A DNA stretch of 53,705 bases from Candidatus Kapaibacterium sp. (GTDB taxonomy: Bacteria > Bacteroidota > Ignavibacteria > Kapaibacteriales > UBA2268): positions 1 to 53,705 of the forward strand of contig JAPLFL010000098.1 in assembly GCA_026390695.1 (NCBI GenBank), in the 5' to 3' direction. The translations under genes and the position numbers were made by a program. How positions within the stretch are numbered: the stretch's first letter is position 1; each line of letters opens with the position of its first letter. The notes under the pieces were generated by a model that was not told where the DNA came from, did not search any database, and saw nothing but the letters and a program-made list of their open reading frames with translations. This document shows, one piece after another, positions 7,671 through 46,589 of the stretch.

Positions 7671-7905
7671 TATTCCTGCTAATGAGCTTGTGTAAAAACT
7701 CTTTATTGCTGTCATTCCTGCGAATGAGACTGTGTGAAAACAATCTTTTTCTGTCATTCCTGCGCATGAGACTGTGTGAAAACAATCTTTTTCTGTCATT
7801 CCTGCGCATGAGACTGTGTGAAAACAATCTTTTTCTGTCATTCCTGCGCATGAGACTGTGTGAAAACAATCTTCGCATGAGACTGTGTGAAAACAATCTT
7901 TTTCT
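7671..7905. repeat. 42-bp tandem repeat array
   Basis: Units begin with GTCATTCCTGCG at 7711, 7753, 7795 and 7837, an exact 42-bp period. A degenerate unit lies to the left (from 7671) and a shortened 32-bp unit at 7874-7905. Each unit is [GTCATTCCTGCGCAT]-[GAGACTGTGTGAAAAC]-[T-rich linker]. The leftmost unit carries a different middle (GAGCTTGTGTAAAAAC), the variant that dominates the second locus at 37 kb. Because 42 is a multiple of 3, long but spurious reading frames appear on both strands. Confidence 0.9.
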
Positions 7906-10066: not shown

Positions 10067-10315
10067 TTACTTGATTATTATAAACTTATTCACAATCGTT
10101 TCAGCCATACCGCTTACACGTAAGAAATATGTTCCCGATTCTACTTTGCTAATCGGTATTACGACGTTGTATATACCCGATTTGAATATTTTTCCATCAT
10201 AAAGGTTTATCATTTGTATACCGTTAAGATCAACTATATCAATGGTTACGGCTTGCTCATCTGATAATTCCATATCAAAATTAATCAAGTCGCTTGCCGG
10301 TTCCGGCTTCACATC
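10067..10315 (-). other. T9SS type-A sorting domain of the giant protein
   Basis: Last ~82 residues. KPEPASDLINFDMEL is the opening strand, GIYNVVIPISKVESGTYFLRV the middle and VNKFIIIK the end. This is the pattern of T9SS C-terminal domains, recognised and removed during outer-membrane translocation and surface attachment in Bacteroidota relatives. Confidence 0.88.
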
Positions 10316-13300
10316 GGAAATCATCATTGTTGCCAGATTCTCCATGGACATAGTCAAAATACAGATTGGTTCTTCACTCAAATCAAAAGAGGAGCCGTCA
10401 TAAGCAACATAGTTCAATTTATAAATGTAATTCTGACCTGGTTTTAAAGAGGCATCATCGTCAATATAATGGTACTGGTTGCCGACTTCAGTATTTACAG
10501 CATGCAATACGGACACTCTTTCATAGCTTGCAACTTTCGAGTAAACCGGAGTTTCACCATCATTAAGTTCTGCCCTGTATATTTCAAAACCGCGAATACC
10601 CGATTCCAAAGCTGTTTGCCATTCCAAGTAAACCCTTTTGAGAGATGATCTTAACCTGAGACCGGCAAATTCAAGTCCGTAACCGCTTCCATCCTTGCAA
10701 GCAGGAGTTAATTTATTCTTTGGATTCCAGGTAGATGATACCAGCAGATAATTAACAGGATGTAGATTAGAACCCTTCCACCCAGTTGATAGGTTTGGAT
10801 TTTTCGCTCCGTTGAAGTTATACAAACGTAGGTAATAGTTTGTGTTGCAAACAAATCCACCTATATTTACAGCTTGTGTCGTAAGTAAAGTTCTGTCAAA
10901 ATTAGCACAGACATAAGTTAATCCGTCGGCCAACACACAATTACTCAAACCAAAAGTTCCGCTCGTACCGGTATTATCAAGATACCAATATCCATCGGTA
11001 ACAATACCCGGCGAAACGTTTGCCTTTGCTACAACGAGTGTTCTTGTACCATTACCGGTTACGGTTCGTTTAACCGAAATAGTTGTCTTATCAGGGGAAG
11101 TCAAAGCCAAAGTGCTTGCCTGAACAGTTGGTTCCGAAGGAATCAAAGCAAATACATTAGAATATGAAGTTAAGAAATTATCTGCACTAACTTTCAATTG
11201 AGCAGCACCGTCAATGCAACCTGAATTTCCGGCAGTCCAAGTCAAATTTGTTGTGACTGTGAAATTCAAAGGTTGAATTGTTGCCGATCCTGGAGCAATG
11301 CTTCCACTCGTGCAAATACCCGGCAAACCAGAATTACCGATTAATACCGGTAAATTATTCGTTTGAATTAATTTATTCCCGCCTCTGTCCATCGCACTTA
11401 TTCCAATGGCAAACGGCGAGCCATCAACCTGAGGAGAAAGAATCTGCGTTAGTGAGAATAATTTTAATTGATTAGGATTCAAATCCGCAGTATTCATTTT
11501 ATATGCAGTATAAACGCCAGATCCATTATATTCATAAATCCTGACCCAAACATCGCCTGCCGGTACGTTAGTAACAGTTAGAGTATTGGATATAGGTCCA
11601 TTAGCAACTAATCTTTGTCCCGAAGCAAGTTCGGAGGCATTATACCAATTAGAGCTTGCAGGATTGATAAGTTCCACCTGATTAGTTGGAGTCCAAGTGA
11701 CTTGTGAATTTAATCCCATAATAACCAATCTCTTACCACCGGTTCCGTTTTCCCAGTTAAATGTAATAGATCCGCTACTGTTGTTTGTAAAGACGATATT
11801 ACTACATTGCCTGAAATTGGTTAATAATATAGTTAAGTTAATTCCATTATCTTCTCCGATTGTAGAAGGGTTAGATGAAATAATCCTAACTCTGTACTTG
11901 CCACCCGATTCAGTAGTTTCTGGAATAAATCCATTAATAATTCCAGAAACACTCGATGAAGAAGTTCCTAAAACAACTGGATTAGTCCAGAGACCATTTG
12001 CATCCGAGAGTTGTGCAGTAAATGTATTAGATGAACCAAAGCAACTATTAGCTGTATATGGAATTGTCATATTCGATCCGCTACTGAAAGGCGAGCCGTT
12101 AATTGTTCCGACAGTAACTACAGGTAAGAGAAGAGTAATATCCGAACCGTTATCGCTGCCATTCACAAAAGGATTGGAAGTTATAACACGAATTCTGTAA
12201 GCTGTGCTGTTTGTAATTGTTTGAGGAATAGTAACTGCTAATTGTCCTGAGCTATTACCCTGATAAGTTCCCAAGTTTTTAACGATACCGAATAATCCGT
12301 TTGCATCGGATAATTGCACGGTAAAGGTATTACTTGCATCAAAACTACCGCATGAAACCGTCCATGATACATTCAAACGGCTATTAACGCAATATGGCCC
12401 TACTGCAATTGAACCTGTTGAAATAGAAGGTGGATTAACTGTGAGGTTACTGCCATTATCTTGAGATATAACAATCGGATTAGTGCTTACAATTCTTATT
12501 CTGTAAGCGCCACCCGGCTGGAGAGAAGCTGGAATGATAGCATGTATGGTTGATGAACCGATTGCAGTAACAGTACCGATATTCAATGGATTATCAAATC
12601 CTCCGTTTTTATCGGAAAGTTGAGCAGAATATTGATTCCCACTCAAATAGCAAGAATTAGCTTCAAATGGAATTGTAAAATTGTCATCTCGACAGAAGGA
12701 TGTGGTTGGAATATTTATTCCTGAGATAGTCGGAGCTTTAACTTCAAAATGTCTTCCAAGAGCCCAATTTGTTGTTTCAACATTGCTTGTATAGACTCTG
12801 ATCACATAGCCACTACCGGCAGGAGTTTGATCAGGAATATTGACCGTTGTAGTTCCAGAACTTCTACCAACAAATTGTCCAAGGTTTATTGGATTTGTAA
12901 ATGAGCCAATTGCATCGGAAATCTGGATTAAGAATGTATTACTTGTTGAAAAACGTCCGCAAGCAACTTTCCAATCAACCGTCGTAGGTTCCCCAGGGCA
13001 GAATGAAGTTCCAACGTATGAAACATCTGCAATTGATGCAGGAAGAATAGTAAGATTATCAGTATAAACCTCTGAAGTTTTTACAGGATTAGTGCTTACA
13101 AGTTTCAATCTATAGGAAGAACCCTGTGCAATATCGCTTGGAATAGTTGCATTAATTGTGGAACTTCCAACAGCAGTTACCGATCCAATATTAATTTGAT
13201 TAGCGAAGTTGCCGTTTGCATCGGATAAGTAAGCTGTATAAACATTTCCATTATTATAGCAATTATTAGCAATAACCGAGATTTCTACTCCAGTTTCGCG

Positions 13301-16300
13301 GCAGAAAGTGTTAGAACTTAATGTTCCGATAAGCAATGAAGGTGCATTTATAGTAATTCCGCTTGTTGCATTCGAACTTGTAATTGCAGGATCACTCGAA
13401 ACAATTCTGACACTATAATTCGATCCTTGAGCTGTACCAGCTGGAATAGTAGCATTTATTGATCCTGAGCCGGAACTGGTTCCGATATTAACAGGACTGG
13501 TAAAACTACCATTAGCATCGGATAACTGAGCAGTAAATATATTCGATTGGCCAAAAGAACCACTTGAAGTATAATTTACAATCAGATTATTACCGGCACA
13601 TAAATTATTAGCCGAAATATTTCCAACTGTGATAGTATTTATATTCTGATTTTGCTGTACTGTAACTGTTATCGTATTAGACAAAGTTGTAAAACCATCA
13701 TTCATGCTAATAATAAAGTTAGTGTTTTGTGTTGGTCTGAATGTAGGATTGGATGAATTTGAACTAAACCCGGAAGGATTTGAAGACCAAGAATAGAAAT
13801 AGCTTCCCGATCCGCCATGCGGAGTGCAAGTTAAGGTAGTTGGATCACCGGTATTGGTTAAAGTACTGCTTGCGTTGGCATTCATTGTGAGTGTATTGGC
13901 AAAACGTGAACCAAACTCAAAGCTCAATTCATTGTTCAAAAGATTATAATCTCCGGGCAGACAATTAACTAATTTTGCAACAACTTTCCCGAATTGACTA
14001 CTCATAGTCCAAGGAACCGGAATTATTTTTACTTCGGCAGGATAGAATGAAATCGGTCTCGATTCAAAGAGAGTTTCTGTCCCTTCGACTGAATTATAAA
14101 ATTCAATTGAGCAACTTGCATTATTATTCGAATTATTCTTTACTCTGGCAACCACATAATCATTCTCACCATAAATTAAATTATTATATGGCAAATTCTT
14201 GTTATATAAGTATAAGCCCGGATAAGTTGTATTGCCATCAACCAAAGTTTCAAATCGAAGGTCAGCAGCTTTTCCAACAATAATTGCTCGGCTGGCTTCG
14301 TTGTTCAAATAATTAATTTCATCCATACTATGCAACTGATTTAGCTTAACACGAATAATATGAACTCCCTCAAGCATTGAACTCCACGTACTTGAACAAG
14401 CTACGGAAGATTCTCCTGAAGCTGCCAGAAATGGAATATTTACAGAATTACCAAGTGGAACGCTGTTCATTAGAAAATCAACTGAGAAATTATTGGCAGA
14501 AACCGGACCGATATTTATAAATGAGGTCGCCAAACTAATCGGTTCACCCGGATCAGGATTCAAATTTGATGGATTTATATGTTCGGAATAAACTGCAACA
14601 TCAGGATACTGTCTGTAAACATGAACATATAAGTAACAAACATTGTTGTTTTCATTGATTTCACACACCGTCGATTGACCATCATAATCTTTATCAGCAT
14701 AAATCGGAATTAAATAATCACCCGGAGTGCTGAAATAATAATTATTTCTCGAAACAGCCCATTGTCTATGAAGAGAATTAATAAAATCAAGACCGAAGCT
14801 TGGATTCCCATAATTTATTGGCAAATAACTCGCATCTAAAATACCATGATTATAAATATATGAATAAATATCAAGACTGGTTTCCATCATTACATTAATT
14901 TCCATAGATTTAACGAAACTCCAGCCATTCCAAAGATAAATATCGAAATCTTTTCCGATTGTTTCCGAAAGGCTGTTATTTTGCTTATTGTACTCATCAA
15001 TTGAATTTTCTTCATCAACAACTATATACAGACTGTGAGCACAATCTACTGTTGCCCATGAGGCTGATGTGACATTGATAAATGTGCCGTCACTAAGATT
15101 ACTAATAATTTGAGTACTTCCTAATTGTATATCATCCAAATAAAATTTTACAGAGAAATTTTGAGCGGCTAATGTTCCCTGATTGCTTAATTTAAATGTA
15201 AAATTAATAGGTTCTCCAGGTATATTTGGATTTGAATTAGATGTTATCAAATCGGAAACTACGAGGTCGGGTTTACGCGGATTTACATATATCAACTCGG
15301 TATAAATATTATTCGATTCGTTTATCTCATCAACAATATTATCGTTATCGACTGTGAATCGAAGAAGATGTTGTCCGCTTGTTGCAAAATAAACATTATT
15401 AAATGCAGCATAAGCCCATGATAAACCGCTAATTGCTGGTAGAGCTACATAATATGTAGCTTGGACTATTCCATTTTGAATATCTTCGAGTTTGACGGTA
15501 CATGTACCTGAAGGTTTACAAACTATATTATTAACCTGAAGTGAAAGTTGTGAATTTTTTCCTTGAAGAGGATCAGGGAAGCTTCTGTTCATATATAAAT
15601 TTGTCGGAACTAAATCAGGTTTGTCAAAATAAATATATTCATTATAATAGATACTTCCATTACTTGTTGCAAGAATTGTATTAACGTGATTTGGATCCAC
15701 AAACGCTTCAACACTATGATAACCCTGAGTCAAATAAGTATGACTTACAGTAAATTCAAAAAATTCTCCGGGCAATAAACTTGCTATCACATTTTCATAT
15801 ACTATTTCACCATCAATTTTTGAAACCAAATAAACATTATCTGCCCTTTGATTACCATAATTTCCGAATCTGAATGTATAATAAATAATATCTCCAATCA
15901 CTGCACAAGAACCGGATCGACCGATCCAGCCACCGTAACTTGCTCCACTACTACTGTAACTTGGGCAGGTATATGTTGAAAACGTTACTGAAGGCATAGT
16001 TGCACTCAGGGTGAAGTCGGTAATTTCACCAGTAATTGTATATGTTCCAACTGAACTCGGAGCATTGAAATAATAATAATAATTACCATTTGCATCAGAG
16101 TGGAAAACAACTTCCTGGTTTGTTTCAACAATTTTTGCTCTGACTTCTGCACCGCAAACTTTAGTAGTTGGATCCCATGAATTATAATAATCTGCATGTC
16201 CCCAATAAAGCACAGATCCGCAAGTACTGACTGAAGTTGGACTGGCATTTGCTGAAACTTCGATACCGCCTGGTATTACATAATCACCAACCAAAACCGG

Positions 16301-19300
16301 ACGAGTTGCATAATTATTCAAACGATTAATATCATTTAAATAATTCGGTTCGTCTGCAAATACTTTTATCGGATAAAATCCCGGAACATCAAAGCTACGT
16401 GATATAGAAACTTCAGCATAAGAATTTGCATATATTGTACTTATTGTTTTTTCCTCTAAGAGTGTATTTTGATTATAAAATCTTACACTTACATTATTAG
16501 CATCCTGATTTGATATATTTCTAATTCGGGTAGTAATTGTAATTGTCTGATTTATATCAGGATGATAATTGGTCATAGTAATATTATTTGCATAAATACA
16601 AAGATCAACAGTGTTAATTCTAACGGTAGGCCCCTGAATATATAATGTTGCAGCGCCAGTTGCAGAATTTCCTTTATTATCTTTTGCAATAAATTTATAT
16701 GCTTTCACTCCTTCGGTTGAGAAATTCAGTTTAATTGAATACTCTTTACCATCAATATAATTATTATCCGATGGATCAATCTCGGACATAGAGTATGAAC
16801 CTTCCGAGGCATCAACAAAATCTCCATCACCATTTATATCAATTTGAACTTTGGGGTAGCCAGTCAATGGAGGATCATTATTTGCATCGGAGTATATGAC
16901 TCTGTATATATAATCAGTTGATGGTTGACCAGATATTGGATTTACACCAGAAGTTCCGTTGTAATAAGAATCATTTTTATAAGTCAAAGTCGGAGGAGTC
17001 GAATTAATGAATCCAAAACCCGCTACATTAAACGTACTTTTTCCGTTTGCTAATATTTCAAGATCAAAACTGGCATTTGCATCGCCAACGGCTCCCGGTT
17101 GAAAGATTATCGGCAGATCATAACTCTGATAGCCTCCAATATTGACAGGGAAATTCACATTTGTTGAATATGTAATGCTGCTAAAAGTAATATTTGATAA
17201 AGTAATAATCTGATTACTATTATTTGTAATTCTCAAGTTATGTGTTACTGAGCTTCCAAGCTGAACATTCCCGTAATCGTAGGAAGTCCAGTCATAATCA
17301 AGATTTGTCAATGTTGTGCTTGATGTAGTAAACTTAAAATAATTTGCCCATTCACCATTGCAGTTTGATCCGTTTTCTGACCGAACGCGCCAGAAATAAT
17401 TTCTGGATGTTATCAGATTCGTTGGCGAGAATGTATTACTTGTAGTAGTTGTATTAAATAATAGAGTTCCGAAGAAATTCGGGTTGTCGGCAACCTGTAC
17501 TCTATAATTCGGAACATCGTTTAATAAATTCCACATTAATGTAGTATGAACATTAACATTTTGAGCATTATTATTAGGATAATTCAATGCCACTTTTCCA
17601 GACCTTGAAACAAAGGAATATACCAATGACCATTCCCCCACACCATCTTTATTATATTCCCTGGCTCTCCAATAATATCTTGAGTAATTCCCTAATGGGA
17701 AATTTACAGGGAAACTGAACGAATTTTGAGTTGATGTATTTTTATCAACACCCGGAGGCAAAATAAGTGTACCAAAAGTACTTGAATTCGATACCTGAAT
17801 TTCAAATGTTCTGGTACCAGTCAGCCAAGTCCATGAGAGTTGAGGATTGAGATCGACGCACTCTGCATTATTAGCAGGACTGTTAAGTTCAGGTACAGAT
17901 AATGTTGCCGATGCAGTCGTAAACCCCCATATATTGCTCCAATAACTCGTACTCGAACTATTCATGGCCTTGACCCGCCAATAGTACATAGTGAAATTAT
18001 CCAATGGATTTGGAACATTGAAAGCATTAGTTGTAATTGTTTGATTAACAATTAAGTTATCGAAAGCCTGAGACCTTGATAGCTGAACGGTATATGAACT
18101 TGCATTTGGACTTACAGCCCAGTTTAAACTCGGTACAAGAGTTTCGGTCGATCCGGCATTTAACGGAGAAGTCAATATCGGAGCTGCCAATAAAACAGAA
18201 AATCCACCTGTCGTCAAAAAGCCTGTTGTTTGAGGCTTTGATGAATTTATACGAATTTTATAATTAGTCCCTATCGGAGTATTCGATGGAATACTCACTG
18301 TTATTGCACTTGATACGGTCGCATTTAATGTTCCGATGATGACAGGAGAAGCAAAATTACCATTTGCATCGGAAAGTTCTGCGGTAAATATATTTCCTAA
18401 TCCATAAGCGCAGCCACTGACATTATATGACAAACCAAGCTGAGTTCCGGCACTGTAAGAGTTGCCAACAAGTGATGCAGGTGTTACTGTTCCTGAAACC
18501 ACGGTTAGATCATTATTATTTGGCAGACCAGATACAGCAGGATTAGATGATACTATTCTTACCCTGTAATAAGAGCCGGGTGCAAGATTGGATGGTAGAT
18601 TTGCATTTATAGTTGCTGAAGAGGTTGTTACCAAATTGCCTATATTCACAGGATTTGAAAAATTACCATAAGCATCTGAAATCTGTGCTGTAAAGATATT
18701 CCCTGAATTATAACAGGAATTTGCAGTAAACGGAATGGATACAGCTGCTCCGTTACAGAACGGAGAGCCATCAATGCTACCTATTGACACAACTGTTCCG
18801 TTTACAACAAGGTCTGAACCATTTGTTGAGCTAACTGAAACCGGATTCGAGCTCACAACGCGGATTCTATACCCCTGACCTGTTGAAAAACTGGAAGGAA
18901 TAGTGGCATTAATAGTCGATATTGATGATCCGGCAAGAGTTCCGATTGATGTTGGATTTGTAAATTCACCGAATCCATTGGAAAGTTGAGCGGTAAACAC
19001 ATTATTGGAAGCAAAAGTATTACAATCCGAGCTAAAATTAACATTCACTGATGCTCCTTGGCAAAATGGAGATCCAGTGACAGCCATTGTTGTAATATTC
19101 ACGGGATTTATCGTTAAAGATGATTGACTTAAACTACCAGTCAAAGCCGGATTGGATGAACTAACTTTGATTTTATAGTTTGGACTTGGGCTTACATTGC
19201 CTGGTATGCTAACATTTACTATCCCTGAGCCAGCCTGAGTTGAATTTGAACCAATCTGAACAGGATTTCCGAAACTGCCATTATAATCTGATAAATAAGC

Positions 19301-22300
19301 GTATAATACATTCCCATTGTTAAACGAGACACAATCAGTTGAATATGCTACGTTAAAGTTTGCACCCAAACAAACCGAATTTTGCGAAAATGTTCCGGTA
19401 CTCAAACTTGCAGTATTTATGGTTATATTCGAACCATTATCAGAACTGAAATATGAAGGATTAGAGGCATATATTCTTATTCTGAACCGGTTTCCAGCCA
19501 AAGTAGTAACAGGAATACTGGTATTAATGGTTGTACTTGTTGCTGTGGAGTATAAATAATCCAAATTCACAAAATTATTAAAACTACCATTTTCGTCCGA
19601 TAATTGAACTCGATAATAATTACCGTTTAAAAATGTTCCATTAGTTACCGTTATTGGAACACTGATATTAGCTCCCTGACAGTAATTTGCATTAATCGAA
19701 CCGATAGTAATCACTGGGAAACTTGTCGAAAAATTGGAACTAACAGACCATGCAGAACTCATTGAAGATGATTGAGCCATAAGCCTGACATAATATGTAA
19801 TCCCACTTTGTAGGTTATTAACAGTAAATGAGTTGGATGAACCACTAAAATATGATATAGTATTTGAGAAATCTGAACTATTCGATAATTGCATTATGTA
19901 ATTGGTTGCATTCTCAACCGATGTCCAATTCAATGTCACAGTTCGGGATACATTCATCTCATTATTAGCTGGTGTTGTTAATGTTGGTGGAGGGAACGGA
20001 GCTTGAATCGTAATTGAGTTTGAATTAATTGAATAATTATAATAAGTCCCGACATTAGCATTAGTTAATGGTGCATAATATAAGTAATAATCACCTTGTC
20101 CACTAATTGGAGAACCATTCAAATACCACTGGCCGTAATTATCAGAGAATAAATAAGCACTGTTAATTTGAGTATTGTTCTCAAGAATGATAAGTCTCGG
20201 CTGAGTACTATTTGTCATTCTTAATTGACCGTTATTATATTTACCACGGTTAATAAAAGTGCCGCTGCAATTTGTGATAAAATTATTAGTCTCATTATTA
20301 TTGATGTAGTTATTGCAATAAAAATAATTTCCGGTATAAAAGTTCATATATCCGTTATTATTCACACTGCCATGAACCATGTAAGTTCCACCATCGGTAT
20401 AAGGAGAGAAAATTGTACCGCTATTATTCAAATCACCATAAACATTCAAATAGAAAACATCATTGGCACCATTAGCATTTCCAACATAACCATTATTTGT
20501 AAAATTACCATTTACAGTGAAATTGCCATGGTAGCCGTTCCAAATCCATGGCATCACTTTTCCATTTGTATTCAAAGTGAAATCCGAATTTATGGTAAGT
20601 CCGCCTGTATATATTGTATTATCGGCAGACCAATTTTTCAGATATGTTATATAACCGCTCGTCCACCATTGATAACCCAAGAAAGAATTATCCAAAGTGC
20701 TGATGTTCTGTGCATCAATTATTCCACCTGATACTCCAAAAACAGAGAATGAATCATGTAGAGTTAAAGTATTGGAACCCATATTTAAACATCCACCGTA
20801 AAGACAGATAAATCCTGATCCACCGAAATCAAGATTTGTCAGAGCATTAATCGTTGAAGATGATGACGAGCCAGCATAAATCTGGTTTCTTATTTGATTG
20901 ACTGAACTTAAATTATGTAATCCTCCGGTAACATTAAAATTACCAGTCAAATTGCCATTATTAACTACATTCCCATTGACATTTAAAGCATAGTTGCCAT
21001 AATTATTATCAAAATTTCCGATATTTGTTAAATTGCCTCCTAATTCACCATAAGGTACGTTAATCGTTCCGCTATTATTAAGATTACCTGCAATATTTAA
21101 ATGAACATAAGCCCATGCACTCGGGTCTCTATCCACTAAACCGTAATTATTAAAATCCCCGGTTACACTGAGCATTCCCCAGTCCCAATTATATGAATGG
21201 TAATTATTCAATAATAATTTACCAGTAGGATAAAGTGTGAAGTTCCCTTCAAAAGTAATGTAGCCAATTCTCAAAGTTCTGTTTGCTGGCCAATTTCTTA
21301 GTATAGTTGTATAGCCTCCACCATAATTGCCTACTGATCCGGCATCAAGGGTATAAATGTTGGCAGCATCAATAGTTCCGTTGAAAATATAGGAATAATC
21401 CTTTAAAGTGAATGAATGGCTGTTCATATTAAAATTACCGCCATTCATATTTATTGAGCATTCACCGTTAAATGTCAAATCTGTCAATCCGGTAACGGTT
21501 GTCGATGTTGCACACGAAATATTCCCTGAGAAATATGAAGAATTTGATTGATTGAAATTATGGCCATTAGTTGTAAAATACAAATTTGTTGTCCAAACTC
21601 CATTATTTGTTACATCAGAATAAGAAATAATCGCAATTGAGCCATATTGATTAATTATAAAACCATTATTTTGTACAGTTCCATTTACTGTGAAATTACC
21701 GTAATTAATAGTTCCACTATTATTAAGATTACCGAGAATATTAACCGGAGCATAATAATTATTATTCAGACCCGGTGCAATTGTTCCGTTATTTGTTAAA
21801 TTACCGTTTACCTGAAGATTTCCTACCCAACCATTAATGTAAACTGGCAAAATCTTACCCGTTGAAGTTAATGTAAGATCACTTGTAGTATTCAGCCATC
21901 CTATATTTAAAGCAGAATTTCCATTCCAATTTTTCAGATATGTAGGCGGATTCCATTGATAATTCCATTCACCGAGATAAGCATTGTTTAAGGTATAAAC
22001 ATTTGCTGCGTCAATTAATCCGTAAACAAGATAAATGTTATCTTTTATTGTTAAAGTATTAGTACCCATCACGATAGCGCCGTTATACATATTAATCGGT
22101 GAAGATCCTCCAAAAGATAAATTACTGAGTGCAGTAATGGTTGTCGATGGTATTGAATAATTAAAGAAAACAGCATTATCAAGGCTTCTACCAGTCGCAA
22201 AACTCAGATTATGATTTCCACCGCTAAACCTAACAGGGCCAAGAACATAACCATTATTTGCAAGATCACCAGTCAAAAGACAGCGTACATTAGTATTTAC

Positions 22301-25300
22301 CGTTCCGGAGCTGCCAGTGCTCAATCCGTTATCAATCACAATCTGATAAATATCATTTTGATTCGAGTTTGGATGTATAGAAATTTTTCCGTTGACAGTT
22401 AAAGCTCCATTAACCCATAATTGACAATTTGATGCCGATCCGTTTAATCCTACACTTTGAATGGCTCCGTTACTGTTAAGAGTTAAATTTGAAGGAATCC
22501 GCAAATATCCGGTATTTAATATCCCGCTTCCATTCCAGTTTTTCAAATAAGTATAATTTGATTCTCCACCACCGGAGTATAGCCCAAGCCACGAATCATT
22601 ATTACAATTCAAATACTGAGCATCAATAGTTCCGTTATAAATATTAAATGAATTATTCAGAGTCAATGAATGATTTCCTGCATTCAAATATCCACCGTTC
22701 ATATTGAAATTACTCGAACCGAAGAAATTCAGATTTGTTAAAGCTGTAATAGTTGTAGATGATACAGAATTATAAAAATAAGAGTTAAAAGTAGCACTTG
22801 AGCCTTGCGAAACATCATGGTTAGATGAGGATAAATAATAATATCCTGACATTAAACCATTGTTAATTAAATTTCCGTTAATAGTTAAATAATTAGTACC
22901 ATATAAATTTTTACCATTATTAACGGTAATATCTACTGCACCAGCATCGGAATTCACATTCACAGGGCCATCAATTTCAACATCATTTGAAGAAATTGGA
23001 GCCACTCCCCCAATCCAGGTATTTGGGTCATTCCAGTTACCGCCGATAGTTGTGGATACAATAGTGGATCTTGAAGTTGTAAATGTCTGCGAGCTGCCAT
23101 AGCTTGTACCGGCATAATTTGTTGCATAAGCACGAAGATAATACTTAGTATTTGCATTTAAACCGGTTACTGAACTTGAAAAAGAACCTGTTGAGCTACC
23201 GTCGCTTGTATGAGAATCAAGAACTGTCGGATTATCTGACGTTGACCAACAAACTCCACGTGCAATCAAAGGATTTCCACCGTCATTAGTCACATTTCCA
23301 CCACTTGTAGCAGAATTAAAACTAATATTATTCACGGTTGAAGAGCTTACCGTTGGATAAATATAGAATAAAGATGCTGCAGCTCTATGATTTAGCACTG
23401 TATTGATACCATCATACTGATCCTGCCAGATAAACATTGAGCCACCAGTTCCATCAGAAGCCAACATAGGAGTTTGTTGAGTATTAGCTGCAGACCATAC
23501 GGCTAAACCGTTTGAAGTCCACTGAGGGCTGCCACTTGAATTAATTTTTTGAGCATATATATCATAATCAGAGCCATTGCGGTAATCTTGCCAGATAATA
23601 ACAGCGCCACCACTAACATCAGCGGTGATTTGAGGATAAATCTGTGTACCTGAAACAGTGCATATAGGTATTCCCTGACTTGTCCATACATAATTTCCGG
23701 TTGAATTTAATTTTTGAGCATAAATATCCCAATTATTGCTTCTGTAATCATGCCATGTAAAAATAGCACCGCCGCTGCCATCACTGCACTGCTTAACTCC
23801 ATATTGATCATTACCGACTGTACAAACCCACATGCCATTATAAGTCCAAAGCTGATTTCCTGATGCATTAACTTTTTGAGCGTAAATATCCCACTGATTT
23901 GAACTACGATAATCCCACCATGAAATAATTGCACCACCGCTGCCATCAGGAATAATTTCGGGACTCTGTTGTGTATAACCATTAGCAATCAGATTAATTC
24001 CATTAGCTGTCCAAACCGTCGAACCACTTGAATTTATTTTTTGAGTATATATATCCCAATTATTATTTCTATTATCATGCCAAGTAATAATAGCACCGCC
24101 GCTGCCATCACTGGCTATCTTCTGACCCGATTGATTACCAGCAGCTGTACATATTGCCATTCCATTATTAGCCCAAGAGAATGTTCCGCTTGACGAAACC
24201 TTTTGAGCATAAATATCCCAATTATTATTTCTAAAATCATTCCATGTGATAACAGCGCCTCCAGAGCCATCAGAACAAATTTGTGGCCATTCCTGAGCTC
24301 CTGCTGCATTACATACCGAAATACCATTGCTTGCCCACTGAGCAGTACCTGAAGAATTAATTTTTTGTGTATAAATATCCAATCCACCAAATCGCTGATC
24401 AGACCAAGATATAATTGCTCCACCGTTTCCGTCGAGGGTTAACTGAGGATTTTGTTGCCCATAAGCTGAATTGCATACGATTACTCCACCTCTTGTCCAC
24501 TGTTCAACTCCGTATTGATCAACTTTTTGAGCATAAATATTCCAATTTCCGTTATTTTCCTGCTGCCAGACATAAATATAATTCCCTGAGCCGTCACTAA
24601 CTACTTGCTGTGCTATCTGATCATCAATTAATGTACTTTGATTGTCCAGAGTATTATTAGTTGCTATATTAGAAAATGTGCCACTGCTATAATCCTGCCA
24701 TGATAGCATTGCTCCACCGCTACCATCACTTGCAATCTGTGGATTGGTTTGATCCATCACTGCTGAACCAAAGGCTATACCATTCGATGTCCAGCGGTTT
24801 GTCCCATTCAAATCAATTCTTTGAGCATATATATTATAATCTGAGCCATTACGATAATCTTCCCATGCTATTATTGCTCCTTGACCACCATCGCTTGTTA
24901 TAGTAGGATAAATCTGAGTATTGCTTGCTGTACAAACAGGAACGCCCTGATTTGTCCAGTCCATACCACCTTCGTTGTTCACACGTTGAGCATAAATATC
25001 CCAATTATTATTTCTATAGTCATGCCATGCAATAATTGCTCCACCCTCTCCGTCGGCTACCATTTTATTGCCATATTGATCGGCACCGGTTGTTACTATA
25101 GGGATACCGGCTCCTGTCCATAATTGATTACCCGAAGCATCAACTTTTTGTGCATATATATCCCATTGATTCGATGGTCTGAAATCCATCCATGACACAA
25201 TAGCCCCACCATTGCCATCGCTAACAATTTCAGGATTATTCTGATTAAAAGAAACCCAGCAAATATTGATACCATTTGCTGTCCATTGAATACCACCAGC

Positions 25301-28300
25301 TGAATTAACTCTTTGAACATAAATATCCCATCCACCTGTCCTGAAATCTTCCCATGTAATTATTGCACCACCTGAGCCATCAGAACAAATAACAGGTGCT
25401 TCCTGATGATTAGAAGCATTACATATTGCAACATCATTTGCCCATGTGATTGTTCCGCTCGATGATATTTTCTGAGCAAAAATATCCCAATTGTTATTTC
25501 TGTAATCCTGCCATGTTATTATTCCACCTCCATTGCCATCGCTTGTTAATTGTGGCATTTGTTGTACACCGCTTGAGGTACTTACTCGATTTCCCTCAGA
25601 AGCCCACTGCACAATTCCATTATTATTTAACTTTTGAGCATAGATAACAGTAATCCCACTTCTTTTGTCATCCCAGGTTAATATCACTCCACCATTGCCA
25701 TCACTTATTAGTTGAGGATTTTCCTGTGAGGATATAGCAGTACAAACCGGAACACCACCAGATGTCCATAATTCAGTGCCAGAGGTATTAACCTTCTGAG
25801 CATAAATATCCCAATTTCCATTCCTTGCATCTTGCCAGACATAAATATAATTACCTGTGCCATCACTTGTAATTTTCTGATTTATCCTGTCAAGGTCAGA
25901 GACATTAGATAATGAATTAGTATTAAGCATTCTAATTTCACTACTATTGGATGTGCGGAAATCAGTCCAGGTAATCATAGAACCATTAATGTTATTAGTT
26001 GCCATTTGAATTGTATTTTGGTCATTGGCTGCATCACAAATAAGAATACCATCTTTTGACCATTTAGTTGTTCCATCAGATTTTATTCTTTGTGCAAATA
26101 TATTATAATCGGTACCATTGCGATAATCAATCCATGAAACTATCGCTCCGCCACTACCATCGCTTGATAGTTCTGGATTGTATTGATTATTTGAAGCATT
26201 GCATATTGCCGCACCTGTGGGAGTCCACTGCTGTCCTCCTTCAGTATTAATTCTTTGTGCATATATATCATAATTGCTTGAACCGTTTCTATCATCCTCC
26301 CATGCTACTATCACTCCTCCATTACCGTCACTGATTTGTTTCATTGCATAATTATTATTCCCTTGGGAACAAACGGGTACACCTTGACCAGTCCATAGAG
26401 TATTGCCATTAATATCAATTTTCTGAGAATAAATATCCCAATGCCAATACGGTCTGTTATCCCACCAAGTTATAATAGCACCACCATTGCCGTCACTGTT
26501 AATCTCAGGATATTGCTGATCGTAACTGGACCAACAAATTCCAGTTCCGTTATTTGCCCACTTTGTGGCTCCTGATGCATCAATTCGTTGAGCATAAATA
26601 TCCCATGCACCTGTCCGTAAATCCATCCATGTAATAATGGATCCGCCATTCATATCAATAGTCATTTTCTGTGATATTTGTTTATTTGTAGCATTGCAAA
26701 TCATTACACCGTTACTTGTCCATGTAACCGTTCCACTTGAAGTAACTTTCTGTGAATAAATATCCCAATTGTTATTTCTATAATCAAGCCAAGAGATGAT
26801 AGCTCCACCACTGCCATCAGAGCAAATCTGTGAAGTGTTTTGAGTGGAAGGAGCCGTACAAATCGGAACTCCGTTTGCAGCCCACTGAACCGAACCATTT
26901 GTATTTATTTTTTGTGCAAAAATATCATTCATACCGCCGCGCCCATCCTGCCATGTGATAACAGCACCGCCATTACCATCACTGACTAACTGAGGCTGTT
27001 CCTGACTAAATATTGAAGTACAAACAGGAACTCCGCCGGCTGTCCAAAGCTCGTTTCCGGCTTCATCAACTTTCTGAGCATATATATCCCAATTTCCATT
27101 TTTTTCGTCTTGCCATGTATAAATATAATTCCCATTTCCGATAGCTACAATTTTTTGATTTAATCTATCAATATCATGTGTAGAATTAAGGGTTGAAGTA
27201 TTGACCAATACCAGATTGGAGCTGCTCTGGCTGTAATCAGTAAATATTATCATCTGACCGATGGCTCCATTAGAAGCCATTTGAATTGAGTTTTGATTAT
27301 TAGCAGCATTTGAAATTAGAACTCCGTTATTTGTCCAACGCGGAACACCGGCAGATGTTACTCTTTGTGCATATATATCATAATCGCTACCATTTCGTAA
27401 ATCAATCCACGATACGACTGCGCCACCACTTCCGTCTGAGCAAATCATAGGATTATATTGTTGATTGTTTGCATTGCATAATAGCACTCCATCTGCTGAC
27501 CACTGCTTTTCACCGCCTGCATTTAATTTTTGTGAATATATGTCCCAGTTACCTGCACGATCATCCTCCCATGTTACAATTATTCCACCGTTACCGTCAG
27601 AGACTTGCTTTATTGCATAATTATTATTCCCTTGGGTACAAACTGGAACACCTTGTCCTGTCCATAATGTATTGCCGTTAAAATCAATTTTTTGTGAATA
27701 TATATCCCATTGATAATAGGGTCTGCTGTCCCACCAAGTGATATTAGCTCCACCATTTCCGTCGCTGATAATTTCAGGATACTCCTGATCATAACTTGTC
27801 CAGCATATTCCTGTTCCGTTGGCTGTCCATTGTGGAGTACCTGTTGGATCTATACGTTGCGCGTAAATATCCCAGCCACCGTTGCGAAAATCCATCCAGG
27901 TGATAATTGCTCCTCCATTCATATCTGTTACTAATTTTGGATTTGTTTGATGATTAGTACTATTGCAAATAACTACTCCATCGGTTGTCCAGGTAACAGT
28001 TCCGCTTGAATTTACATGTTGTGTAAAAATATCCCAATTATTATTTCTAAAATCTTGCCATGTAATAATTGCTCCACCATTACCATCAGTGGAAATCTGA
28101 GGAGAATATTGAGTTCCAAAAGCAGTAGACACAGGTATTCCCTGACTTGTCCATTGAGATACACCGTTTGAATTCAGTTTTTGAGCATAAATATTTCCAT
28201 TTCCATTTCCATTTCGTGTATCTTCCCATACTATAATAACCCCGCCATTGCCATCGCTGATAAGTTGAGGATTTTGTTGTGAATAAGGTGTTGTACAAAC

Positions 28301-31300
28301 AGTAACACCACCGGAAGTCCACTGTTCAGTTCCCGCTGTATTAACTTTCTGAGCATAAATATCCCAATTACCGTTTCTTTCATCTTGCCAAACATATATA
28401 TAATTACCGTTTCCATCTGTGATCATCTGTTCATTCAATTTATCATTATCACCAGTTCCGCTCAATGAACTTGTATTCACAAGCCCAATCTGTGTTTTGG
28501 CAGAATTGCTTTCATCCATTATAGAAATCATTACACCGTTTTGTCCGTTTGAAGCAAGCTGAGAATTATATTGGTTATTAACAGCATTAGATATTACAAC
28601 ACCATTAGAAGCCCATTTTAGAGTGCCCACGGGATTAATCCGTTGAGCATAAACATCATAATTAGTCCCATTGCGATAATCTTGCCATGAAATAACAGCG
28701 CCACCGCTCCCATCGGTGCATAAACGTGGATTATACTGCTGATTAGCAGCATTACACACCATTAATCCTTGACTTGTCCACTGCATATCACCTTGATTGC
28801 CAACTTTTTGAGCATAAATATCATAATTACCTGCCCGCCAATCCTGCCAAGCAAGAATAGCTCCGCCAAAACCATCACTCGTTAATTTAAGAGCTCCTTG
28901 TTCGTTGCCTTCTGTACAAACGGCCAGACCATTACCTGTCCATATTGAATTACCGTTTATATCTATTTTCTGAACATATATATCGCTTTGATAATATGGC
29001 CTGCGATCAACCCAACCTATAATTGCTCCATTATTTCCATCAGAAATTATTTCCGGAGCATATTGATCATTTCCAACGCTACATATATTTATTCCATTAG
29101 CAGCCCATTGAATCTGACCAGTACTATTTACTCTTTGTATATAAATATCCCAGCCGCCAGTCCGTAAATCCTGCCAAGTTATTATTGCTCCACCTAAATC
29201 ATCAGTTGAAATTTTAGGATTATTCTGAGCATTAGTAGCAGTGCAACTTGGAACTCCTTCGGCAGCCCAGCTCAGATTACCACTTGAATTAATTCTTTGT
29301 GTAAAGATATCCCATTCACCACGTCGATAATCCTGCCACGTTACAATCGCTCCACCAGAGCCATCAGTGGTTAATTGCGGGATTTCCTGATCAGATGGAT
29401 ATTGACAGACCGGATTACCGTTAGTTACCCACTGGATGACTCCACTTGAATTTACTCTCTGTGCAAATATATCAGAACAGCCACTGCGCGTATCTTCCCA
29501 CACTATAATAGCACCACCGTTGCCATCACTTGTTAACTGGGGATTTTGTTGAGAATATAATGATGTACATATCTGAACACCGCCTGCAGTCCAAAGTTCT
29601 GTACCTGATGGATTGACTTTCTGAGCATAAATATCCCAATTACCATTACGCAAATCCTGCCAGACATAAATATAGTTCCCGGAGCCATCAGTTATAATAT
29701 TTTGATTAGCTTGGTCATTATTAAGAGTAGTTGTATATGCAGCAGTATTCTGAATATATAAATCAGAATTTCCATTACGAGTATCCTGCCAGAAGACCAA
29801 AGCATTGCCATGTCCGTCACTTGCAATGACCGGGGCTGTTTGATTAAGTGTAGCACTACTAATTGCAACTCCCTGACTTGTCCATCTATTCACACCTTCT
29901 GAAGTTATTCTCTGGGCATACACATCCCAAGCACCACTTCTATAGTCTTCCCAAGCGATTATTGCGCCTCCACTGTTATCCGAACAAATTTGCGGTACAT
30001 CTTGTGTATTACCGGCACTACACACTGCAAGTCCCTGACTTGTCCAATAAATACTGCCATCAGTTTTTATTCTTTGTGCATAAATATCCCAATTACCTGC
30101 TCTCCAATCAGCCCAAGTGATTATAGCACCACCATTGCCATCAGCGGTCAATTGCTGGCTGCTTTGTTCATTCCCTTCTGTACAAATTGCAACACCATTG
30201 CCAGTCCAAAGTACTGTACCATCGGCAGCAACTTTTTGTGCATAAATATCAGACTGATAATAAGACCTGCGATCTAACCAAGAAACAATAGCCCCACTAT
30301 TTCCATCAGCTATGATTTGTGGATAGGTTTGATCATTTCCAACTGCACAAATATTAACTCCACCTGAAGTCCATTGAACAGTTCCACCTGAATTAACTCT
30401 CTGAACATAAATATCCCAGCCACCAGTGCGTAAATCCTGCCAGCTTATGATTGCTCCTCCGGTTAAATCACTGCAAACGACCGGATTAGTTTGTTCATTT
30501 CCAACTGTACAAATATCAACTCCGCTACTGTTCCACTGAATTGTTCCATTTGTATTTATTCTCTGAGCGAAAATATCATGATTTGTATTTCTTGTATCTT
30601 GCCATGTAATAATTTCGCCTCCGCTGCCATCACTGGTTAACTGAGGATATTCCTGATCACCGGAACCTGTTATTATTGCAATACCATCAACTGCCCATTG
30701 AATCTGACCGTTTGAATTAATTTTCTGTGCATAAATATCCCATGTCGAACCACTTCTGTTATCCTCCCATGTGATTATTGCTCCGCCGCTGCCATCTGAT
30801 ATTAATTGAGGATTTGCCTGACTGCCAGTTGCACTACAAATTACTATTCCATCATTTGTCCAGGCCATCTGCCCGTTTGCATTAACTCGTTGAGCATAAA
30901 TATCACGGCTGCCTGTGCGTTCATCCATCCATGTCATAATATAACCACCGTTTCCGTCAGGACATATTTTCTGTGCTGTTTGATTACCTAAAGCAGTACA
31001 AACGGAATTATTTTGCGTCGGGTCATTCAACCAACTTGTTGTTGTAAATGTCTGAGAGCTGCCATAGCCGGTTCCTGCAGAATTTGTGGCATAAGCTCTT
31101 AAATAATAAGTAGTATTTGGAGTAAGGTTACTGATTGTACTTGAAAAAGTACCAATATCAGAAGCATCGTTTGAATGAGAATTAAGTATGGTCGGAATAT
31201 CGCTTGTACTCCAGCATACACCGCGAGAAGTGACGGCCGATCCGCCATCACTGCTAATATTTCCACCGGAGATAGCCGAATTATATGAAATATTTGAAAT

Positions 31301-34300
31301 CGGATTTGTAGAAATAGTGGGTAACTGAAGACTATACAGTGTTAAAATTTCAGCATCTGTTAATATTCTATTATATAGTCTAAAATCATCTAATTTGCCT
31401 GTAAAATACTCAATACCACCAACAGGTGAGACTCCCATATAAAAATTATCAGTAGTAACAGGTAATTGTTGATTGTAAGAATTTGATGAAACAAAATTAC
31501 CATTAAGATAAAATTTTACAGTTGATGAAGATCGATTATAAGACATCGAAAGGAAATACCATGTATTCAAATTAATGTTATAATTATATACAGATTCAGT
31601 CCAATTGATCCAGAAGCGCTCTCCATTACCGTAATATTTATCCAGAACAAATTCCCAACCGTTTGAACTTCCGAAACCACCAGAAATTTTATTAATTAGA
31701 GTTCCATAAGAAGCTGCTGTCATATTGATCCAGCCTGAAATTGTCAGGATACTGTTTTGCTCAATTGAATTGATCAAAGTGCTGCTTGGTGCAGAAATAT
31801 AGCTGCTCCCATTAAAATAATAAGCACTATTTGGAACACCAAATCTATCAGTTGTCAGAGTAGCACCGGTAACTGATCCATTATGACCGTTTCCGCTCAT
31901 GTCATTTGCATTGCTATTGAATGGGAAATATGCTACCAGACCATTTGTAAGATTATTTGTGGTTGTAAATGTTTGATCACTACCATAACTTAAACCATCA
32001 CTATTTGACGCAAAAGCGCGTACATGGTAAATTATCCCTGATGTTAGGCCACTAATAGTGATTGAATAAGAACCGGAACTGCCGCTTATTGTAGCTGAAT
32101 TTCCTGAAATCGTAGGATTAGCACTTGTGCTCCAACACACGCCACGTGTAACTGGGAGTCCCCAGTCGTTGGTAACATTACCTCCGGCAAGAGCCGTGTT
32201 GTTGGATATATTGGATACTATTGACGTTGTTACAACCGGAACTTGTTCACTATAAAGTGCTTGTATTTCAGTAGTAGATAAAACTCGATTATAAAATTTC
32301 AAATCATCGATAATACCATTGAAATATCTTCCACCGCCGCCCCATTGTCCGACCCTGAGATACTGATCGGAATAATTTATATTTGAAGCTGTATTAACAG
32401 TACTAATTAGAGAGTTGTTTAAATAGCCCTTAATTCCATCCTGAGATTTTATTAAAACAAAATGATACCAAGTATTTGCAGATAATACAGGGAACTGTAT
32501 AGAGCCTACATTAGCAGCTCCCCATGAGAAACTGTTTATAGAACCTCCATCCATTTGCATAACAAAATTCAGATATGAGTTATGATTATTGTCCAAAATA
32601 TCGGCATAAGTCTGCTGAGTAGATGCAGGATTTACCCATAATGAAATAGAAAATGTCTGATAACTGAAATACGATCCTAGATCGACATCACCATTACCCC
32701 CAAAATAATAAGCGCTATTTGGATTTCCAAATCTGTCACTTGTCGGAGAAACATTATTAGGAGTGCCATTGTGGCCATTTCCGCTCATATCATTTGCATT
32801 GCCGTTGAATGGATACCATGCAATAAATCCTTGAGTAATATCATTTGCTGTTGTAAATGTTTGCTCGCCACCATAGCTTAGTCCGAAGCTATTCGATGCA
32901 AAAGCACGTACAAAATAAGTAGTTCCTGATACTAATCCACTAATATTAGCGGAGAATGTCCCCGTAGTTCCTGCTGTAGTTGCAGAACTGACTGAGACAA
33001 TCGGGTTAGGTGAATTACTCCAGCAAATGCCACGGCTTGAAATCGTTGACCCACCGTCACTTGTTACATTACCGGCAGCTACAGCCCCTACTGTACTAAT
33101 ATTTGATACAGCAGTTGTTGTCACAAACGGTGATGAATTTGTTGTAAATGTCTGGTCGCTGCCATAGCTCAGTCCATCAATATTTGATGCAAAAGCACGA
33201 ACATGATAAGTAACACCGGACGTTAATCCTGTTATAGCTACACTATAAGTACCGGAACTACCGCTTGTTGTGGCAGAATTACCCGATATAGTCGGATTAG
33301 CATTTGTGCTCCAGCAAACACCACGTGTAACTTGAGGAGCACCGGTGTTGGTTACATTTCCAGTCACATCTGCTGAATTTGTTGTTATATTAATTATAGA
33401 AGATGTTGTAATAGACGGAGGAGCTTCGGTATATAGTGTTTGAACTTCAGTTGAGGATAAAACTCTGTTATAGAACTTCAAATCATCGATATTACCACCA
33501 AAGTATCTTCCACCGCCGCCCCATTGGCCTACTCTAAGGAATTGGTTAGAATATGTAATATTTGTTGTTGTGTTTACTGTTTGAATCAGATTCCCATTTA
33601 AATATCCAAGTAAACCATTAGGTGATTTTATAAAAACAAAATGACTCCATGTATTTGAAGGAAAGTAAATAGGGTAAATTTGTCCTACAGGCTGAACTGC
33701 AAAATAAAAAGTATTTAATAAGCTTCCATTTTGTTGAAATTCAAAATTTGTACCAGCACTGTGATTATTATCCAGAATGTCCGCATAATCAAATTGAGCT
33801 GTATAAGGATTAACCCAGAGCGAAATTGAGAAAGTCTGATATGTGAAATATGAACCAAGATCAATTCCAGAAGAAGCATTAAAAAAATAAGCGCTATTTG
33901 AATGACCGAATCTGTCATTTACCAGTTGCACACCATTAGGAGTGCCGTGATGGCCATTGCCGCTCATATCATTTGCGTTTCCGCTGAATGGATACCAAGC
34001 AATAAAACCGGCAGTTATATCTTCGGCAGTAGTAAACGTCTGCTCACCACCATAGCTGATTCCAACGCTATTTGTTGCAAAAGCTCGTGCATAATAAGTT
34101 GTTCCGGAATTTAATCCGGTAAGGTTTAAAGAAAATGCACCGGTTGTACCACTTGTTGTAACAGTATTGCTTGATATAGTTGGTAGAGGAGATGTGTTCC
34201 AGCAAACACCACGTGAAGTAATTGTTGCACCACCGTCATCGCTAATATTTCCACCTCCTGATGCGGAATTAATCGTAATATTTGAGATTGACGATGTTGT

Positions 34301-37030: not shown

Positions 37031-37260
37031 GAGACTGCGTGAAAACGATGAATTTCCAATGGAATGTCATTCCTGCGAATAAGCTTGGGTAAAAACTCCT
37101 TATTGCTGTCATTCCTGCGAATAAGCTTGGGTAAAAACTCCTTATTGCTGTCATTCCTGCGAATAAGCTTTGGTAAAAACTCCTTATTGCTGTCATTCCT
37201 GCGAATGCAGGAATCCCATAAGGTGCCATAGATTGGGATTCCTGCATTCGCAGGAATGAC
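37031..37260. repeat. Second 42-bp repeat array ending in a perfect 27-bp palindrome
   Basis: GTCATTCCTGCGAA starts at 37066, 37108, 37150 and 37192, again exactly 42 bp apart. The first segment carries GAGACTGCGTGAAAAC; the next three carry AAGCTTGGGTAAAAAC or a one-base variant. The array ends in a perfect 27-bp inverted repeat (37192-37218 and 37234-37260). Same design as the locus at 7671-7999 but with a different inner unit. Confidence 0.88.
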
Positions 37261-37374: not shown

Positions 37375-37612
37375 TTCGGAAAATGGCCTTTTTTTATGCA
37401 ATTTTATGCAAACAGCAATGTATTGGGCTGCTGGAGCTATGAGTTGTTGCATAACTGATTATGCAAATGTATGCAAATGAGCTGCCGATTTGCTTCGGAA
37501 AATGGCCTTTTTTTATGCAATTTTATGCAAACAGCAATGTATTGGGCTGCTGGAGCTATGAGTTGTTGCATAACTGATTATGCAAATGTATGCAAATGAG
37601 CTGCCGATTTGC
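37375..37612. repeat. Perfect 119-bp tandem duplication with ATGCAAAT-like motifs
   Basis: 37375-37493 and 37494-37612 are identical by eye. Each copy contains TTATGCAA-type sequences: TTTATGCAA and TTTATGCAAA near the start, TTGCATAA (inverted), then TTATGCAAATG and GTATGCAAATG 11 bases apart, with GATTTGC at the end. A further TGTGCAAATG follows at about 37620. Lying 170 bp upstream of the small gene at 37786, the motifs could be binding sites. The identity means a very recent duplication or an assembly artefact. Confidence 0.85.
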
Positions 37613-42546: not shown

Positions 42547-42619
42547 TTATTATTTTTTTGATATTTCATACATCTTAAAAATAATAAAATTCCAGATTAA
42601 TTCGGTTATCTGAGATAAA

Positions 42620-46044: not shown

Positions 46045-46056
46045 TTTTTCATTAAC

Positions 46057-46500
46057 CTATAAAGAAACAATTGGTTTACCATTCGGGCTTACCGGATTAA
46101 TAATTAATTTCTGACTCATTGAGTCAACCAATAAATCCATTTCTTCTAAGGGGATTTGTCCGAGTAAGGGTTCCGTTCCACGTTCAAGTATTACACAATT
46201 AGTCAGGCTCATCCTATCTCCATATTTCAAAAAAATACCATATCCTTTTGAACATGGTTCAATGTTATCATATCCATTACTATGCCAGCCTAATATTTCT
46301 TCATCTTTTATTATACCAAGTGCTTCAGCTATATCTTCACCGATAACCGGAAGAGTAGCCTCTGAGTCAATTACCATATTCACAGAAACAGAGCGGACAT
46401 TACATTGCGGTATAAGATGATTTTCTGCATTCTTTTTATCAACAAAGTTGATTAATGTAATATTTGCTCTTATTTTGTCGTTCATTTTATAGGTCCACAT
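46057..46500 (-). CDS. Retropepsin-like aspartic protease, catalytic triplet altered
   Basis: 147 residues (142 if translation begins at the second ATG, 46485). The fold pattern is that of clan AA small aspartyl proteases: NMVIDSEATLPVIGEDIAEALGI where active members read VDTGAT..V, and the C-terminal LLGQIPLEEMDLLVDSMSQ followed by INPVSPNGKP, typical of the group. The catalytic Asp is present, but DTG has become DSE. Thr to Ser is tolerated in some relatives, while the loss of Gly should disturb the active-site loop. A single transition (GGG to GAG) would explain it. No signal peptide, so cytoplasmic. First gene of the operon with the two secreted proteins that follow. Confidence 0.8.
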   Translation of the reverse strand: MWTYKMNDKIRANITLINFVDKKNAENHLIPQCNVRSVSVNMVIDSEATLPVIGEDIAEALGIIKDEEILGWHSNGYDNIEPCSKGYGIFLKYGDRMSLTNCVILERGTEPLLGQIPLEEMDLLVDSMSQKLIINPVSPNGKPIVSL

Positions 46501-46542
46501 TTATCGGTTATTCAAAACCATGTCATTCAGCACTCTCTTTAA

Positions 46543-46574
46543 AAATTCCCTCCCCAATTTTGGGGAGGGAATTT
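46543..46574 (-). terminator. Intrinsic terminator between two surface-gene units
   Basis: A perfect 13-bp stem, AAATTCCCTCCCC (46543-46555) with GGGGAGGGAATTT (46562-46574), loop 6. It lies 16 bp after the stop of the 804-residue secreted protein (minus strand) and continues into T's, separating that gene from the retropepsin-like operon. Confidence 0.85.
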
Positions 46575-46589
46575 AAAGGATATTTTATA

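Follow-up and report, generated by a model that had tools for sequence, protein, structure and literature searches.

A probable chain of six eight-bladed beta-propellers, copied as finished domains, in a giant protein of Candidatus Kapaibacterium

The repeat array of the giant open frame

The window, that is the whole of contig JAPLFL010000098.1 of Candidatus Kapaibacterium sp. at its full length of 53,705 nucleotides, carries on its minus strand a giant open frame in which an array of W-x-D repeats is embedded. The array divides into six units, delimited by the placement of these repeats, and the last repeat of each unit (slot 8) is set apart by its length and by its crossover motif.

10067..35254, minus: giant open frame holding the array, 8,395 amino acids (aa), single terminal stop
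29741..31033, minus: predicted propeller unit 1, aa 1408-1838
28469..29740, minus: predicted propeller unit 2, aa 1839-2262
27194..28468, minus: predicted propeller unit 3, aa 2263-2687, modelled alone
25916..27193, minus: predicted propeller unit 4, aa 2688-3113, modelled jointly with unit 3
24647..25915, minus: predicted propeller unit 5, aa 3114-3536
23378..24646, minus: predicted propeller unit 6, aa 3537-3959
29696..29827, minus: slot 8 of unit 1, shortened last blade with the linker and first strand of unit 2
28424..28555, minus: slot 8 of unit 2
27149..27277, minus: slot 8 of unit 3
25871..26002, minus: slot 8 of unit 4
24602..24733, minus: slot 8 of unit 5
23378..23464, minus: slot 8 of unit 6, followed by a stretch resembling fibronectin type III (FN3-like, by eye)

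Taking fold, chain and history jointly, the segment aa 1408-3959 very probably forms six separate eight-bladed beta-propellers in a row, copied as a finished domain.

Anchored on their conserved W-x-D position, the repeats number 48 and fall into six units of eight, with unit starts at aa 1431, 1854, 2278, 2703, 3129 and 3552. These starts are spaced by 423, 424, 425, 426 and 423 aa, or 1269, 1272, 1275, 1278 and 1269 bp. An earlier note, made from the DNA letters, had counted 48 repeats with a special one at every eighth position in units of 1269-1278 bp, and we obtain the same numbers, exact to the base. The array also lies where that note had placed it (23400-31030), with its edges now moved to 31033 and 23378; the special repeat does recur at every eighth position, and is better described as a shortened last blade. 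Repeats in slots 1-7 are 53-56 aa long and those in slot 8 are 43-44 aa in units 1-5, while in unit 6, where the array ends, the end of slot 8 was assigned by us. The 'G...W...G' crossover, scored with a strict motif, is found in 5-6 of the six units in each of slots 1-7 and in none of the six in slot 8. Slot 5 is 55 aa long in all six units, with an extra residue of its own, and the RPYYQWDIY-like variant seen earlier in the fifth repeat has a related form there in every unit (from unit 1 to unit 6: RSYYQSDIY, RPYYQSDIY, RPYYQWDIY, RPYWHWDIY, RPSNQWDIY and RSSNQWDIY).

Grouping of the repeats by slot

Among the 48 repeats, mean identity is 0.540 for pairs in the same slot, 0.404 for pairs in the same unit, 0.409 for neighbours and 0.403 for other pairs. 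The slot pattern is not due to chance, since none of 10,000 label permutations reached the same-slot value, the permutation maximum being 0.444. The nearest neighbour of a repeat lies in the same slot for 39 of the 48 and in the same unit for 3. On the blade tree, slots 5 and 8 form strongly supported clades (100/99 and 99/96), and slots 1 and 2 clades of moderate support (87/83 and 86/83). Slot labels need 11 changes on this tree, against a minimum of 29 among 300 shuffles, and unit labels need 37, with a maximum of 36 among 300 shuffles; the repeat-by-repeat phylogeny proposed as a check on the array thus groups equal slots across units, and not by neighbour. Median blade identity is 0.46 over the 42 full repeats and 0.44-0.50 inside single units.

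Relatives of the unit

Twenty loci came from a survey of 84,980 species, each represented by one genome, and 35 further regions were chosen from the top-scoring matches in genomes sampled from the phylum and class. Repeats were counted in frames with at least three of them by a blade-profile rule (score above 4 bits, match starting within the first 15 positions), and three double fetches (L069, L095 and L097) were removed, leaving 61 distinct frames. Eight repeats are found in 41 of these, seven in 8, six in 4, four in 3, three in 2, and nine, eleven and twelve in one each; none of the 61 has more than 14. At least L017, L081, L088 and L101 are cut or split frames, L073 and L085 are among those where the rule left out a further match, and L014 and L023 have seven repeats each. 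Two distant frames, L024 (eleven by rule; candidate division WOR-3) and L022 (twelve by rule; an unclassified bacterium), show about fourteen repeats of about 52 residues by eye, perhaps two seven-bladed rings.

Of the 41 relatives with eight repeats, 37-40 have the crossover motif behind the second strand at each of blades 1-7, but only one has it at blade 8. The last blade lacks it in nearly all relatives, as in all six units, and the stand-alone rings end where the units of the window end. A looser motif that allowed F or L for W matched 22 of the 41 last blades and was set aside in favour of the strict one. The relatives include secreted-looking proteins of about 500-560 aa that consist of one such propeller and little else, and they occur in records named Bacteroidetes, Chlorobi, Acidobacteriota, Aminicenantes and Krumholzibacteriota, among others. 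In one relative genome (G515, at L100) a stretch of 11 kb holds four eight-repeat frames, two being close copies of each other; here rings were copied into individual genes, not into a single chain.

Predicted fold of the units

Unit 3 was modelled on an alignment (A1) of the six units and eleven relatives, namely L007, a paralogue encoded in the same genome, plus ten of the survey's 20 loci. The model of 425 residues has a mean predicted local distance difference test score (pLDDT) of 92.4 and a predicted TM-score (pTM) of 0.92; in it, three kinds of strand occur eight times each and a fourth, short kind seven times. Blades 2-8 are four-stranded (one strand being two residues long), in agreement with the four strands per blade of an eight-bladed propeller; blade 1 is three-stranded because the linker takes the place of its short strand, and unit 4 in a two-unit model likewise starts with a three-stranded blade. 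Closure of the ring at eight blades is suggested by this prediction both through eight sets of strands and through end-to-end alignment with closed propellers, residues 8-425 lying on 2ovq_B with Z 30.1 and a root-mean-square deviation (rmsd) of 2.6. Structural alignment with VIA-align gave CylK (Z 30.6, rmsd 3.8), ODA16 (30.1, 2.4), Fbw7 (30.1, 2.6), TBLR1 (29.3, 2.5), the designed Scone-E (27.5, 2.7), a BamB fusion (25.9, 3.0) and Cake8 (25.8, 3.0). Of these we take ODA16, Fbw7, TBLR1, BamB, Scone-E and Cake8 to be eight-bladed, as presumably are the solved structures 5mzh, 2ovq and 5naf. The structure prediction that had been proposed as a test of one unit therefore gives, at the level of a model, eight blades that align end to end with solved propellers, and not an open solenoid.

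The model of units 3 and 4 together has a pLDDT of 84.2 and a pTM of 0.57; its pLDDT falls below 50 nowhere but in residues 1-7 and 428-432, the latter being the unit junction. Among its best 50 rows, single solved propellers match mostly within one half (about 1-430 or 433-851; for example 1-426 and 433-851), one exception running over 375-851, and two-propeller proteins (IFT-A, EMC) cover both halves with an rmsd of about 19-25. Because the matches split at the boundary and the two-propeller proteins fit at such an rmsd, the two rings look separate, with an unsure mutual orientation. Six consecutive eight-bladed propellers in one polypeptide, as the earlier note had foreseen, are thus what the one-unit and two-unit models and the eight-repeat relatives together predict.

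It is possible in principle that the 48 repeats do not close every eight, and instead build one uninterrupted open solenoid or a small number of larger rings. The repeats are indeed much alike, with a mean identity between neighbours of 0.41, and rings cannot always be told from sequence: PMC9218822 describes a 47-blade protein without a good AlphaFold model. The shortened repeat at every eighth position, which also ends 40 of the 41 eight-repeat relatives, the eight-bladed one-unit model and the splitting of the two-unit matches at the boundary all speak against such an arrangement, and we regard it as very unlikely.

Pfam gave no family above cut-off with its best stretch in the units of the giant frame, and none above cut-off in unit 3 alone. 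DUF1491 came closest, at 24.4 against a cut-off of 25 bits in unit 3 and with matches in 14 of the 17 members of A1, and was set aside with other names that were below cut-off or chance-like. Searches of the PDB by sequence gave no match at an expectation (E) value up to 1 with the unit profile, a single match at E 1.6, taken as chance, with the blade profile, and only an FlgD-like tail with the relative L024; none of the three linked the blades to CylK.

History of the array

A tree was built from the units together with the 41 relatives that have eight repeats; the other 20 frames, with a different count, were left out of it and of the register test. The six units form one clade in this tree with support of 100/99, from a bootstrap that was not fully settled. 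Units 3 and 4 are sisters (100/100), unit 1 branches first, and the nearest other row is the paralogue L007, on contig C105 of the same genome, with weaker support (90/90). The blade register is in place for 14 of the 15 unit pairs. As the units form one clade against the 41 relatives, a finished eight-bladed domain appears to have been copied as a block, and the claim that the eight-repeat block was the unit of duplication agrees with both the clade and the register.

The units share 46-64% identity, with nonsynonymous divergence (dN) of 0.26-0.49 and synonymous divergence (dS) of 1.3-2.6, the latter near saturation, for the unit pairs; the longest exact stretch of DNA common to them is 31 bp. 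These dN and dS values and the limited exact sharing indicate old copies under purifying selection, neither neutral nor produced by the assembly. Inflation of the array by the assembler might be suspected, as the window is one whole contig of a 129-contig draft. However, the units differ at 30-42% of aligned bases, share no exact stretch beyond that length and lie in one uninterrupted frame, and we consider such an artefact extremely improbable.

No blade register shared with the relatives emerged. When all eight blades are compared, 4 of the 41 relatives fit best at shift 0; with blade-8 pairs omitted, this shift gives the best fit for 26 of the 246 pairs of a relative and a unit and for 106 of the 820 pairs of relatives, where about one in eight is expected by chance. 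Shift 1 is in excess (60 of 246 and 153 of 820, respectively), although mean identities between relatives and units are nearly equal over the shifts, at 0.440-0.450. Only the paralogue L007, among ten relatives viewed singly, tends to the register of the units (5 of 6 units). The register returns in close pairs of relatives, in 8 of 24 pairs at 0.6-0.7 identity and in 4 of 6 above 0.7. These patterns suggest amplification of blades in the stand-alone proteins and amplification of rings in the protein of the window. As a more tentative step, and one to which we give somewhat less than an even chance, the stand-alone members could have reached eight repeatedly by fresh blade amplification, the number being set by the fold of the blade and not by descent, after which the window would have strung the finished ring six times, into the longest eight-bladed chain found. 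Our estimate is kept below even because homogenisation between blades, or plain erosion, could give the same picture.

The array of the window might itself have grown blade by blade, with the slot pattern imposed later by selection for position. This is the rule described for propellers in PMC9218822, and it fits the relatives, which have no common blade register. The 14 of 15 unit pairs in register, the clade formed by the units, and two features common to the units, the additional residue in slot 5 and the form of the linker in slot 8, argue against such an origin, which we think highly improbable here.

Copying of the finished eight-bladed domain, singly or in blocks, would have brought it up to six, and the copies would later have diverged under purifying selection. 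The opening part of units 2-6 would be the linker plus one strand of blade 1; all six units would close after the second strand of their last repeat. With this ending, the shortened eighth repeat would be the transition from ring to ring, the end of one disc, with the next starting about ten residues on.

Several observations weigh against six closed, block-copied rings. Nine of the 48 repeats have their nearest neighbour in a different slot, and slots 3, 4, 6 and 7 are not clades on the blade tree, with approximately unbiased (AU) tests that do not reject slot clades for them (p = 0.331, 0.272, 0.231 and 0.435). Twenty of the 61 related frames lack exactly eight repeats; a few are cut, and others have seven or, by eye, fourteen. 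The eight-bladed fold is a predicted and not a solved one; the unit that was modelled had been cut at eight repeats, which favours closure of a ring, and the sole control for this cutting is the two-unit model, built on five two-unit rows and with its pTM of 0.57. The highest Z goes to the seven-bladed CylK, and lectins of the PLL type, which we take to be seven-bladed, reach Z 22-24 at rmsd 3.7-4.1. TM-scores from Foldseek, normalised by query length, do not exceed 0.62 (CylK) among the matches listed, and blade numbers are mixed there, including GH43 enzymes, presumably five-bladed. The structural matches do not fix the blade number, so the count rests on the strands and the repeats.

Comparison with known propellers

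Among the closest known systems is the sequence model TIGR04275 (beta_prop_Msarc). Its cut-off is 85 bits, and the six-unit region scores 288.9 (E 3.9e-88, 14 stretches); all 17 members of A1 match it at E below 1. However, this model has 40 positions and the repeats of the window 53-56, it falls below cut-off for unit 3 alone (55.2 bits) and for the stand-alone L012 and L009 (38-39), and its listing is silent on units of eight repeats. Another is the C-terminal propeller of CylK (7ron, 7roo), with the highest Z over 344-348 residues at 18-19% identity and the best Foldseek E (1.8e-11). This propeller is seven-bladed with blade-bridging calcium (PMC8916777), whereas each unit of the window has eight repeats; it fits with an rmsd of 3.8, against 2.4-2.6 for 5mzh, 2ovq and 5naf, and gave no match in the sequence searches of the PDB.

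Receptors of the LRP5/6 type carry several YWTD propellers, which are six-bladed and separated by EGF modules. They resemble the protein of the window in having several propellers in one extracellular chain, and differ from it in that its rings are eight-bladed and its joints about ten residues long. Many blades per chain are also known from WRAP, whose 14 blades fold as two seven-bladed rings, and from the 47-blade fungal NACHT protein (both in PMC9218822). In that paper, highly repetitive propellers derive from one blade, and once from a two-blade piece, unlike the window, where the copied piece is the whole eight-bladed ring; the median blade identity above 60% that defines them there is also not reached in the window (0.46). 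Many-bladed and multi-propeller chains are already known; a bacterial chain of six eight-bladed rings, duplicated as entire rings, was not found in the literature searched, although one may have been published.

Propellers are a textbook example of a fold that grew by duplication of a small element. One family here seems to show both this, in relatives that mostly have eight repeats and share no blade register, and copying of the whole ring, in the window with its six rings in register. Two questions thereby become open to test: what determines the number of blades, and how frequently entire rings are duplicated. Sequence searches found neither a Pfam model above cut-off nor a solved structure for the unit, yet its relatives occur under the many record names given above, so a single solved structure would aid the annotation of numerous secreted proteins.

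Other domains and possible role of the giant protein

The array is flanked by the following parts of the same frame.

35198..35254, minus: probable signal peptide, aa 1-19, MKKIYFYLLFLIMAVTANS, read by eye from sequence
34322..35197, minus: N-terminal Asp-box (BNR) repeats, six STDGGNTW-like boxes (Pfam Sortilin-Vps10 2.1e-13, PSII_BNR 1.9e-07; motif positions)
31034..34321, minus: three Laminin_G_3 (ConA-like lectin fold) domains alternating with FN3-like domains (Pfam: three Laminin_G_3 stretches and one fn3 stretch; remaining FN3-like by eye)
10076..10306, minus: C-terminal type IX sorting domain (Por_Secre_tail; Pfam E 1.5e-07)

The Asp-box stretch matches Sortilin-Vps10 and Ycf48(-like) models and is probably a seventh propeller, of another, unrelated kind, at the start of the protein. 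By eye, an FN3-like stretch directly follows the 48 repeats. The region aa 3960-5061 gave no match in the Pfam search, and between it and the sorting tail lie an Ig_Rha78A_N match and five CARDB stretches (Pfam). The tail scores 32 bits against a cut-off of 27, and the same genome encodes SprA, the outer-membrane pore of the type IX system (SprA_N 151 bits, contig C99; SprA alone was sought), so that a sorting tail above cut-off and a type IX component, by which a substrate is recognised, are both present. The chain thus bears signs of type IX export, together with numerous domains of an extracellular, adhesion-type character. We infer that Sec and the type IX system export the giant protein, which would then be displayed or released.

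We consider it fairly likely that the protein is a surface or released binding protein whose six discs act as multivalent faces. The row of discs would offer repeated, slightly different binding faces for an extracellular ligand, or act as a spacer, alongside the lectin-fold, FN3-like, immunoglobulin-like (Ig-like) and CARDB parts. That the discs are passive spacers, binding no ligand and adding only length and stability, is a real but lesser possibility: the same chain carries Ig-like, FN3-like and CARDB parts of stalk type, although the secreted-looking one-propeller relatives suggest that the ring itself does something.

Distribution and search for other chains

Within its own order, 1 of 123 genomes, the one under study, has a match at E up to 1e-60. 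Matches occur in 9 of 60 related genomes at 1e-3 (this genome included), in 78 of 391 genomes of the class sample at 1e-40 and in 22 of 395 of the phylum sample at 1e-25, the thresholds differing among the samples. This patchy distribution may point to a gain from outside the order. Other multi-ring chains were sought in these overlapping sets and in 15 genomes of one family, the own genome being in all but the last. None was found among the matches listed, the longest frame other than that of the window having 2,774 aa (L087) and eight repeats; the phylum and class scans scored at most four candidates per genome and class matches are listed in part, so a chain may have been missed.

Other features of the window

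Four large consecutive minus-strand frames (540, 438, 703 and 822 aa) at 40924-49058 have no Pfam match (E up to 0.001 and 0.01), nor does the frame 50427-53705 at E up to 0.01, beside which lie about 15 copies of a 21-bp unit (50027-50336). Arrays of 42-bp units are found at 7672-7873 and 37065-37206, the latter adjoined by a perfect tandem pair of a 119-bp unit (37375-37612). The consensus sequences of the two 42-bp arrays both contain ATTCCTGCG, and these arrays possibly belong to one dispersed repeat family.

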